A stretch of 64,000 bases of DNA from Streptosporangium amethystogenes (GTDB lineage: Bacteria; Actinomycetota; Actinomycetes; Streptosporangiales; Streptosporangiaceae): assembly GCF_000721075.1 (NCBI RefSeq), contig NZ_JOEQ01000027.1:62001-126000 (forward strand). The letters are read 5' to 3'. The translations under genes and the position numbers were made by a program. This document shows, piece after piece, positions 49,821 to 54,865 of the stretch. Position 1 is the stretch's first letter, and every line of letters starts with the position of its first letter. The notes under the pieces are model-generated. The model did no database searches. It was not told the DNA's origin and worked only from the letters and a program-made list of their open reading frames with translations.

Positions 49821-52310
<2,490 letters not shown>

Positions 52311-52366
52311 GTCGATTTTCCCTCGGGTATGGCTGCGTGGATGGTCTGACCCGCCTGGCCCAATGC

Positions 52367-52391
52367 AAAAACCCCCCGCTCACGCGGAGGG
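52367..52391 (-). terminator. Attenuator terminator in the leuS leader
   Basis: On the minus strand CCCTCCGC-GTGA-GCGGGGGG forms an 8-bp stem (one G-U pair) followed by TTTTTGC. It lies about 57 bp upstream of the leuS start on the same strand. No other minus-strand gene precedes it that it could serve, except the short leader frame. It is therefore best read as a conditional terminator for leuS. Confidence 0.82.
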
Positions 52392-52392
52392 C

Positions 52393-52437
52393 GGCCGCAT
52401 CGGCAGGGCGCTCAGGGGCGGGGAGGCCGATGCGGCC
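52393..52437 (-). promoter_or_regulatory. Leader hairpin preceding the leuS attenuator
   Basis: A perfect 12-bp stem pairs 52426-52437 with 52393-52404 (GGCCGCATCGGC with GCCGATGCGGCC). The 5-prime arm lies inside the leader ORF just after its Leu codons, and the 3-prime arm abuts the terminator. The loop contains CTCCCCGC (52425-52418), which can alternatively pair with the GCGGGGGG arm of the terminator. Confidence 0.7.
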
Positions 52438-52462
52438 CGATAAGCAGGGTCGCGGCACGCAT
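52412..52462 (-). CDS. Leader peptide of leuS with tandem Leu codons
   Basis: A 16-codon frame, MRAATLLIGPHRPPRP, begins at an ATG 6 bases after a TAGTCT minus-10-like hexamer (52474-52469), as expected for a leaderless mRNA; the minus-35 is poor. CTG CTT code adjacent leucines just before the first arm of the leader hairpin, and the stop falls in the hairpin loop. Short Leu-containing leaders upstream of leucine genes are a classic attenuation device. That it controls a synthetase gene here is inference. Confidence 0.6.
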   Translation of the reverse strand: MRAATLLIGPHRPPRP

Positions 52463-52847
52463 AGAGCAAGACTATCGCAGCCCGCAAGGCGTATTCGTGG
52501 CCTGGGGAAACAGACCCGATCACGGCAAACGGGAGACAGCCGTCCGAGCAGGTCGGCAGAATGAGGATTTCCGCATTCGCCGGAGCGAACGAGACCCGAT
52601 GGCTATACACCTGTTGTGACCTCGTACGTCCTTCGCGTTTACTCTTTTCACCGTGGCACATTCAGTAGAGCCGGGGCGGGGCCCGGATCCGTTGGAGGTC
52701 GGCCTGCCCATGCAGGACCCCCCGACCGACCCAACAGGACTCCAGTTCAGAGGGGCGTTCTCCAGTTTCCCTGCGAGCCCCCCCGTCTCACGTGAGATCA
52801 TGCCCAATACGCCTAATTCGGGCACCCACGCGGGAGGTAAGGAAAGC

Positions 52848-54865
52848 ATGGCCTCGGAGCAGTCCAGCCAGTCCCACCTGCCTCCGGTATGGCCGGAGGC
52901 TGCCGAACCGTCACACTCGTGGACGAACGATCCTCTCGGCACCGGTCCCCAGCTCCCTCGCCCGCAGGAGGAGCCACAGAGCGGCAACGCCTCCTGGCAG
53001 ACCTCGCCCGGTGGGGGGCAGCGCGCCTCCGATCCACAGGCCGGTTCGCCCGGCCAGACCTCCCCCGGCGGCGGCTGGGCACAGGCCTCCACCCCACAGA
53101 ACGACAGCTGGGCAAAGGCCTCCAACCCACAGAGCAACGGCTGGGCACAGGCCTCGGCCCCGCAGAACGACAGCTGGGCACAAGCCTCGGCTCCCCAGAA
53201 CCGGCCCCGCAGGGCGGCGCCGACGACCCGCGCCAGACCTCCCCCGGCAACGGGTGGCCGCAGCCCACCCCGTCACAGGGCGGCGGCTGGTCACAGACGT
53301 CCGGCCCACAGGGCGGCGCAGACGACCGCAATCCGTCCTCCCCGGCCAACGAGTGGCCACAATCCGTCCCCGCTCCCCAGTCCGACCCGCTGGGCCAGGC
53401 CTCCCCGGGCGGCAACGGCTGGGCACAGGCCACCGCACCCTCGCACGACGGCTGGGCGCAGGCATCCAACCCGCAGCACGACGGCCGGACGCATCCGTCA
53501 GGCCCGCAGGGGGATGCGCGCGGACAGCAGGTTCCCGGCGGGGGGGAGGCGTGGCAGGCCACGCCAGCGCGCGACGCCTCCGGCCGCCCTCCGGCTCAGC
53601 CAATGGAGAACAGCGTGTGGCCGCCCACCCCTCCGGCGTCCGGCGCCACCTGGCCACCCGCTCCCCCCATGGGAAACCAGGGTTTCACCGAGGCACAGAC
53701 GTCGACGTTCCCCTCCTCCTGGGCCGGCCCTCCCACGGAGGGCCCCGCCGCCCATTTCGGCGACGCCCCCGCAGGCACCGTTCCCGCCACCTCCCCTGAC
53801 GGGGGCGCCGGAAACGCGCGGCGCAGTTACGGCGTGCCGGACAATCCCGCCATGTGGGCCATGGCCGCGGCGAACGCGGCGGCGGCCTCCCAGGCCCCCT
53901 CGCAGGGAACTCCCGTTCACCCCGGAGCCGGCCCCCAACCGCCACAGCCCCAGCCGGGACAGCCCGCGCATCCGGGGCAGCCCGGCCATCACCTGAGCCG
54001 CGACCCCTCCGACCCGAACAAGCCGTTCGTCACCGCCGGCCAGATCAGCGGTCCGAAGACCCCTCCGCCCGAGCGCCAGCAGGAGCTGTGGAACACGGTC
54101 TTCGGCGACAACTACCAGGCCATGGAGGACGAGGACGAGTTCGAGGAGCGGGGTCGGCCGGTCTGGATCTTCGCGCTGGCCGGATCTGTGATCATCGCGC
54201 TGGTCGGCGCGGTGCTCTGGGCGTTCCTGGCCGGGCCGCTGGCCTCCGCGGAGGAGGAGATCACCGAACCCAAGCCCTCGGCGACTCCCCAGAAGACCGC
54301 CAAGCCCGCCGCCATCGGTCGTCTGCCGCGATTCACCGGCGATCCCTCGCCGGTGGCCGGTACGCTCACCGACCAGCCCGCGGGGATCACCCTGGCCCAG
54401 CTCGGTGCCCCATGGCGGCAGGACCAGCGCCCCAGCGTGCCCACCACCTACGGCTTCACAACCCGCCAGTACCTCCCCGCCGGTACGGACTCCACGGGCA
54501 AGACCCAGTTCGCGCAGCTGATGTCGGGCCCGCTCTCACCTCGTTTGAAGAGCAGGTACACCTCCCCGGAAAACCTCGCCCCGGTGATCAACGCGGTGGC
54601 CTCCAGCGGCCGCAAGCGGTTCTTCCCCGAGGACAACACCGCCCGCAAGACCGCCCAGCAGACCCTGTCCGTGAACGGCCTGCCCGGCCAGCTCGCCGCG
54701 TACGAGATCACCTCGGGCGGTTCGAAGACGACCATGGTCGTGGCGGCCGTGAGCACCGGCGCCGACCTGCCGGCGATCGTCTACATGTCGGTGCCGGACA
54801 GCAAGAAGGAACTGCTCCCCGACATCAACACGGTCTTCAAGTCGATCCGCGTGCCGGGGCGGTGA
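52848..54865 (+). CDS. Pro/Gln/Trp-rich single-pass membrane protein, interrupted by a frameshift
   Basis: The gene would encode about 672 residues if one base were restored near 53201. Before that point the frame reads MASEQSSQSHLPPVW and an 11-residue repeat of the type DSWAQASAPQN. After it, the same style (GWPQPTPSQ, GWAQATAPSHDG) continues in another frame, one base off. A long disordered Pro/Gln/Gly/Trp region runs to about 390. One membrane helix (VWIFALAGSVIIALVGAVLWAFLAGPL, split here as VWIFALAGSVIIALV and GAVLWAFLAG) follows, then an extracellular domain of about 220 residues without recognisable motif. AAGGAAAGC precedes the ATG. A GTG at 52653 is a possible leaderless start. Confidence 0.78.

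Follow-up and report, generated by a model that had tools for sequence, protein, structure and literature searches.

The window, by which we mean the whole 64-kb stretch of DNA analysed here, carries leuS on its minus strand, encoding leucine–tRNA ligase (49821..52310; TIGR00396, E 2.8e-278). This gene, which is proposed to be the regulated one, starts with a GTG at 52310. The features upstream of it are all on the same strand. A candidate promoter, TGCGATAGTCT (52469..52479), contains the minus-10 box TAGTCT (52474-52469), and six nucleotides further on is the ATG (52462) of a leader peptide ORF encoding MRAATLLIGPHRPPRP (52412..52462, 16 codons plus TGA). Within this frame are the putative control codons CTG CTT (52442..52447); the second of these, CTT, closes the Leu run and is conserved in that position. 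Hairpin A (52393..52437) has 12 pairs, with arms at 52437-52426 and 52404-52393, and its GCCGC core (52436-52432) starts five nucleotides after the CTT. The last base of hairpin A is directly followed by the first base of an intrinsic terminator hairpin (52371..52392; stem 52392-52384/52379-52371), which has nine pairs, seven of them G-C, a four-nucleotide loop GTGA, and TTTT after it at 52370-52367. An initial annotation had described a TAGTCT box six nucleotides before an ATG, a 16-codon frame with adjacent Leu codons, a 12-bp hairpin following those codons, and a terminator stem with a T tract before leuS. We located all of these at the positions given, the terminator stem being computed as nine pairs followed by TTTT.

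The folding energy of the whole leader is ordinary (z −0.59, with 56/200 shuffles equally stable), and the case for the leader thus rests on comparison. The terminator scan found one terminator in the scanned stretch, against 0.2 expected. Rfam 15 gave no matches in the 64-kb window at gathering scores, and at E≤10 it gave just one chance-level match in 52250-52750, on the opposite strand. Because none of the ORFs upstream of the leuS leader has a Pfam match, the presence of a divergent upstream gene rests on codon composition: the plus-strand ORF 52889-54865, divergent from leuS, is coding-like, with a GC content at third positions of 0.85. The minus-strand ORFs 52520-53137 and 52380-52661 are non-coding-like (0.73 and 0.69, compared with 0.95 in leuS). 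The terminator is therefore probably not the end of a same-strand gene.

We compared leuS upstream regions from two sources, namely the best 80 of 590 leuS loci found in named genomes, and 30 leuS loci from 60 genomes of relatives of the source genome. Among the best 80, the closest named relatives by LeuS (81–88% identity) are Planobispora, Sphaerisporangium, Thermoactinospora, Microbispora and Nonomuraea, and on this ground the source genome is taken to belong to the Streptosporangiaceae. Two loci with no or too little upstream sequence (L009 and L057) and a duplicate of the window (L081) were dropped in drawing up the set of 108 upstream regions, of which 106 are distinct (L106/L023 and L109/L038 are each counted twice). 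A TANNNT box 5–8 nucleotides before a short frame with Leu codons was found in 77 of the 108 actinobacterial regions. We regard 75 of these as credible, setting aside L006, where the frame is spurious, and L036, which is doubtful and has no Leu run. A stricter scan required TANNNT, six nucleotides, [AG]TG, and a frame of 6–24 codons with adjacent Leu codons. The leuS leader is its single match on either strand of the window, and it matches 66/107 leuS upstream regions and none on their reverse strand, with a mean of 0.15 matches when the 107 regions are dinucleotide-shuffled (20 rounds).

The leader is present in Streptosporangiaceae, Actinomadura, Arthrobacter and relatives, Nocardioides, and others. 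The initial annotation named related leuS leaders lacking the Leu codons or the terminator as a refutation, and its proposal withstands this check: many genera of the class have the box, the Leu codons, both hairpin A and the terminator before leuS, even though 31 of the 108 regions are without a leader by the scan. The latter include all seven Nocardiopsis/Thermobifida/Streptomonospora loci (L010, L011, L013, L018–L020, L026). These seven loci have a TAACCT box instead, in the form GCTAACCT or GTTAACCT. Two other loci, L103 and L006 (Microbispora corallina), have a recognisable leuS leader with CTG CTT and a minus-10 box, and no ATG at the expected place; they are perhaps decaying copies.

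The box-to-start gap is six nucleotides in 72 of the 75 credible leaders and seven in the other three. In the window, TGCGNTANNNT-N6-ATG occurs once, and not at all in 100 shuffles; TGCGNTANNNT by itself is not above chance there (1 found, 1.49 expected), and the promoter scan found no sigma-70 consensus at the leader. A TANNNT box six nucleotides before the leader ATG has the spacing expected of leaderless starts, and in S. lividans TAnnnT lies on average 6.3 nucleotides before starts (PMC8079986). The promoter position would give a leaderless leader-peptide mRNA. TGCG stands directly before the box in 60/75 leaders, and an NTGAC minus-35 was found in only 2/75. This conserved TGCG ahead of NTANNNT, with hardly any minus-35, constitutes an unusual extended minus-10 common to the leuS leader promoters.

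For the structural comparison, 67 leaders were aligned, leaving out L006, L036, L096, L025, L012 and L067 (the last two with no terminator by script) and identical segments. In the 10-pair core of hairpin A and the 7-pair core of the terminator taken together, 94.9% of cells are standard pairs, compared with 85.2% in shuffles, and sliding the two helices reduces the paired cells to 41.5–54.4%. Double changes occur at 13 of the 17 pairs, in 134 cells against 43.0 (sd 7.5) in shuffles. Eight of the ten pairs in the hairpin A core have double changes, as do five of the seven in the terminator, whose helix is 98.5% paired. In the 25 family leaders, 97.0% of cells in hairpin A are paired, and for all 12 + 9 pairs of the two hairpins the figure is 97.9%. 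The initial annotation had called for an alignment of related leuS leaders, and this one reveals both conserved Leu codons and compensatory changes in the two hairpins.

A covariance model, R1, was built from the 67 aligned leaders. Its best match in the source genome is the window leader (E 5.3e-13). In the class as a whole, with E≤0.001 and strict filters, it matches 208/394 genomes and 92/137 genera, these 208 having been partly inspected, and gives no match in the remaining 186 genomes. A leader with terminator was obtained by script in 67 of the 70 class loci inspected, the exceptions being L169, L170 and L183, where L169 and L170 are second R1 matches in two genomes. Four of the 67 leaders already occur, with the same sequence, in the first set and, since the class loci were chosen by R1, their agreement with R1 is partly built in. 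A LeuS-like N-terminus follows the leader in 67/67 (tblastn E≤1e-3, 35–89% identity). For four more distant class loci scored with NCBIfam, TIGR00396 is the best model, below its full-length cut-off because the proteins are fragments. Fourteen of the 67 class loci encode MRAVRLLLSEPR followed by a stop codon, the published S. lividans leuL2 peptide, and are taken to be Streptomyces on this ground. A single covariance model thus detects both the window leader and loci encoding exactly this peptide, which supports its homology to that of Streptomyces. In one genome there are two genes of leuS type (L135, L168), each with a CTT leader, hairpin and terminator of its own, in stretches that are both partly N.

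CTT is the last codon of the Leu run in 67/69 leaders, with CTC in the other two; the first codon is more variable (CTG 48, CTC 11, CTT 9, TTG 1). The run also ends in CTT in 64/67 of the class loci, these being model-chosen. By comparison, CTT accounts for only 93/4687 Leu codons (2.0%) in the leuS bodies of the same loci, some of which are partial genes, and for 0/64 Leu codons in the leuS of the window. In theory, an isoacceptor whose charging drops readily should be the one that reads the control codons (PMC1183508).

The GCCGC of hairpin A begins five nucleotides past the CTT in 62/67 leaders, and in the remaining five it has one or two substitutions at the same position. The front edge of a ribosome lies about 10 nucleotides past its A-site codon. 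Given this, a ribosome stalled at CTT would cover the whole of GCCGC; stalled one codon earlier it would cover two of the five bases, and two codons earlier, none. The 5′ arm of hairpin A is therefore placed within the expected footprint of a ribosome stalled at the control codons. In leaders of the short type, this arm would also lie under a ribosome that has reached the stop codon, and polarity would therefore rest on dwell time.

We consider it very likely that the leader is a leucine-responsive, ribosome-mediated transcription attenuator of leuS, as the initial annotation proposed when it described a leader-peptide attenuator; the promoter box, Leu codons, hairpin A and terminator all recur upstream of leuS. 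Comparison of sequences shows the minus-10 box and its spacing, the peptide, CTT, the CTT–GCCGC spacing, hairpin A, the terminator and the place before leuS, and from these features we infer the transcript start, the stalling, the polarity and the pause. The first transcribed base would be the A of the leader ATG or one adjacent to it, and the ribosome would accordingly load on the 5′ end. With enough Leu-tRNA, the ribosome would pass CTG CTT and leave, and hairpin A would form; RNA polymerase would then probably pause in the terminator loop, the abutting terminator would form, and most transcripts would stop. When Leu-tRNA is short, the ribosome would stall with CTT in its A site and its front edge over GCCGC. 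Hairpin A could then not form, and transcription would continue into leuS.

A classical attenuator needs an antiterminator, and we looked for one in several ways. In our main test, the RNA freed by the stall was compared with the terminator 5′ arm plus loop, and its complementarity was scored against its own shuffles. In the 67 leaders the freed segment is less complementary than the shuffles (mean z +0.57, with 2/67 below −1), and the same is true of the 67 class loci (mean z +0.88, none below −1); in the 14 leaders of Streptomyces type no antiterminator was detected (mean z +1.21). The same test on six attenuators of E. coli MG1655, which likewise have a leader peptide, a hairpin after the control codons and a terminator, gave thr −0.85, leu −1.22, trp −1.50, his −2.46, phe −3.31 (with pheM outside the stretch used) and ilv +0.79; thus five of six are negative, unlike the leuS leaders. 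The E. coli amino-acid attenuator leaders are not known to be leaderless.

Across the 67 leaders, the complementarity of the hairpin A loop to the terminator 3′ arm is below that of its shuffles (mean z +0.44). Among 25 region pairs, negative means were obtained for the left arm of hairpin A, at −0.40 against the terminator loop and −0.23 against the terminator 3′ arm, and for the leader ORF with the 3′ arm plus U tract (−0.28), the 3′ arm (−0.18) and the terminator loop (−0.04); all other pairs were zero or positive. Swapping loops between leaders (n=91) or permuting them (n=98) gave no sign that the loops are adapted to the hairpin A right arm, although this arm is nearly invariant, which leaves the loop-swap test with little power. 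The energy of the best competitor relative to the terminator has means of 0.57 and 0.61 in leuS leaders and ranges over 0.39–0.97 in E. coli. These ranges overlap, and absolute strength alone therefore does not exclude an antiterminator. When the full leader is folded in the stalled state, the terminator is still present. None of the tests used detected a conserved antiterminator.

The alternative that survives best is a classical Yanofsky attenuator, in which blocking hairpin A lets its right arm AUGCGG (52400-52395) pair with CCGCGU (52387-52382) and so sequester the last part of the terminator 5′ arm while the 3′ arm is still to be transcribed (52382..52400 in all). The pairing is present in 94.0% of cells in the 25 family leaders, with slid versions reaching at most 74.1%. 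When the ribosome is stalled and polymerase has reached the terminator loop, the minimum free energy structure contains the inner GCGG:CCGC in both the window and L082. These are only four of the six pairs, and when the 3′ arm is added the terminator wins. The best competitor has −9.0 kcal/mol, against −18.0 for the terminator. Hairpin A and the terminator already constrain both segments, and the pairing has no excess of compensatory change (98/500 shuffles as high); nor is an antiterminator pairing enriched in the wider family, where the loops are not adapted to the right arm. A precedent is provided by C. glutamicum ilvBNC, for which a weak antiterminator with a small overlap is described as working: its antiterminator (36-79) overlaps the terminator (77-113) by a few nucleotides (PMC11857589). 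That leader resembles ours in having CUU among its control codons, a first hairpin discussed as a pause hairpin, and a terminator, and differs in its antiterminator and in the gene controlled. A weak AUGCGG:CCGCGU antiterminator in Streptosporangiaceae is possible, and we consider this alternative plausible, though less likely than not.

A second version of the attenuator dispenses with the antiterminator. The step U|G is a typical RNA polymerase pause step, and a candidate pause position of this kind is found in the terminator loop of the window (52381..52382, minus strand), 12 nucleotides after GCGGC of hairpin A. Of 134 leaders, 125 were parsed and 98 are distinct; U|G occurs 9–12 nucleotides after hairpin A in 82 of these 98, against 33.5 (sd 4.4) from loop permutations, the 82 not being independent events since the leaders are related. 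In 58 of the 82 there is a G at −10 or −11. In a small control using other terminator-like hairpins from the same loci, U|G was found in 6/21 loops against 4.3 expected, and the leader-like hairpins in the same control had it in 41/49 against 19.3. The spacing of 9–12 nucleotides is that of a hairpin-stabilised pause, and by analogy with trp and his we read hairpin A as a pause hairpin that a stalled ribosome would remove. The U|G hypothesis was derived from the same sequences that were used to test it, and a loop preference for other reasons may also explain the excess. A cimA leader in the same genome, described below, has no U|G at 9–12 nucleotides from its hairpin and a C|G at 11 by hand count, which speaks against the pause.

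The full proposal is that termination depends on the hairpin A pause, with no antiterminator, and that the same design, a control codon followed after five nucleotides by a hairpin with an abutting terminator, is a general actinobacterial sensor that includes cimA with Ile codons. We put this forward tentatively, as a rather unlikely reading when taken whole. If it were true, a ribosome stalled on a single CUU would remove both hairpin A and the pause, and polymerase would pass a terminator insulated from competing structures.

Control that does not involve the ribosome, by a T-box, a protein such as LeuRS or a small ligand acting on the leader, we consider very unlikely. The strongly conserved GCCGC/GCGGC of hairpin A might conceivably serve as a binding site; however, the reading frame, the CTT and the fixed distance to hairpin A have no role in such a model, and no T-box was matched by Rfam in the window at gathering scores, or in 52250-52750 at E≤10. 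Equally poor prospects attach to the antiterminator suggested in the initial annotation, in which CTCCCCGC in the loop (52425-52418) would bind to GCGGGGGG in the 3′ arm of the terminator (52379-52372). Eight pairs are indeed possible in the window sequence, but the antiterminator role is contradicted by relatives: in the 25 family leaders 73.3% of cells are paired, a value that 492/500 shuffles reach, there are no compensatory double changes, and two of the eight pairs are broken in 16 and 17 of the 25. Such an antiterminator would also have to displace a local hairpin via that hairpin's own 3′ arm. We have rejected this pairing. Finally, a spurious short frame lying by chance beside another transcript's terminator, for which one might cite the ordinary folding z-score and the upstream minus-strand ORFs in the mechanical ORF list, can practically be dismissed in view of the 66/107 matches observed against 0.15 expected, the compensatory changes in hairpin A and the terminator, and the non-coding appearance of those ORFs.

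The leucine-responsive attenuator that we favour has precedents, which answer the doubt expressed in the initial annotation on how widely attenuation is described for a synthetase gene in actinobacteria. Classical attenuators before leuS were predicted in S. avermitilis and S. coelicolor (Seliverstov et al. 2005, PMC1262725), with a Leu-codon leader peptide and a terminator before leuS as here; in the accessible text of that study, leuS attenuators are named only in Streptomyces among some 20 genomes. The same text reports antiterminator hairpins in the two Streptomyces, whereas we detected none in our 14 Streptomyces-type leaders, a comparison made without their drawn pairing. In S. lividans TK24, a leaderless leuL2 before leuS was described from RNA-seq in 2021 (PMC8079986); according to the portion available, it encodes MRAVRLLLSEPR and is followed by a hairpin and a U stretch. 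The window leader is similar in position and layout, and differs in that its peptide is longer (with a GPHR tail) and that the left arm and part of the loop of hairpin A lie inside the frame. Predicted intrinsic terminators are few in actinobacteria (PMC2965389), and we found no leuS attenuator case in the accessible text of PMC2965389 or PMC4833913. Among the literature matches listed, no title concerns a leuS leader in Streptosporangiaceae, the CTT rule or a missing antiterminator; subscription journals are mostly outside the coverage, and for the novelty of these points this is weak evidence. The kind of attenuator is already known from Streptomyces, and the Streptosporangiaceae member is new. 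The present analysis extends a 2005 prediction in two Streptomyces genomes to a class-wide element with support from compensatory changes. It also provides testable handles, in the form of one rare codon, one fixed spacing and a pair of hairpins. Because a conserved antiterminator is apparently lacking, the element is well suited as a model for attenuation in actinobacteria.

Three further R1 matches were found in the source genome. The second match overall (E 6.4e-6) is a leader encoding MFYGLLIIGRRAG and a stop codon before a citramalate synthase gene (TIGR00977, E 7.1e-178). It is a candidate isoleucine/leucine attenuator before cimA (L119, 1595 to 1446, minus strand), with a hairpin GCGCGCUGGC/GCCAGCGCGC near a terminator. 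Of 30 cimA loci (L192–L221), the script flags a branched-chain run in 26, and by eye 24 are II(I)GRRAG-like; in L218 the run is in another frame. In the cimA leaders that were printed, the hairpin arm is five nucleotides past the last Ile codon, as in leuS, and the terminator follows within a few nucleotides. The literature search on a cimA leader listed a single match, unrelated by its title.

The third match (E 0.0125) corresponds to the LEU element of leuA (PMC1262725) and lies in L120, on the minus strand from 1620. Its Leu run ends in CTT, with AGCT and a GCCGC hairpin after it (CTT-AGCT-GCCGC), nearly the same unit as in the leuS leader; it differs in its place before leuA and in its four-nucleotide spacing, with no terminator seen, and it was published as a pseudoknot. 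The window leader is not such an element, its gene being leuS and a terminator being present. The R1 matches before cimA and leuA suggest a single sensor unit, composed of a control codon, a short spacer and a hairpin, that is used with different outputs. The fourth match (L121) has an E value of 0.106.
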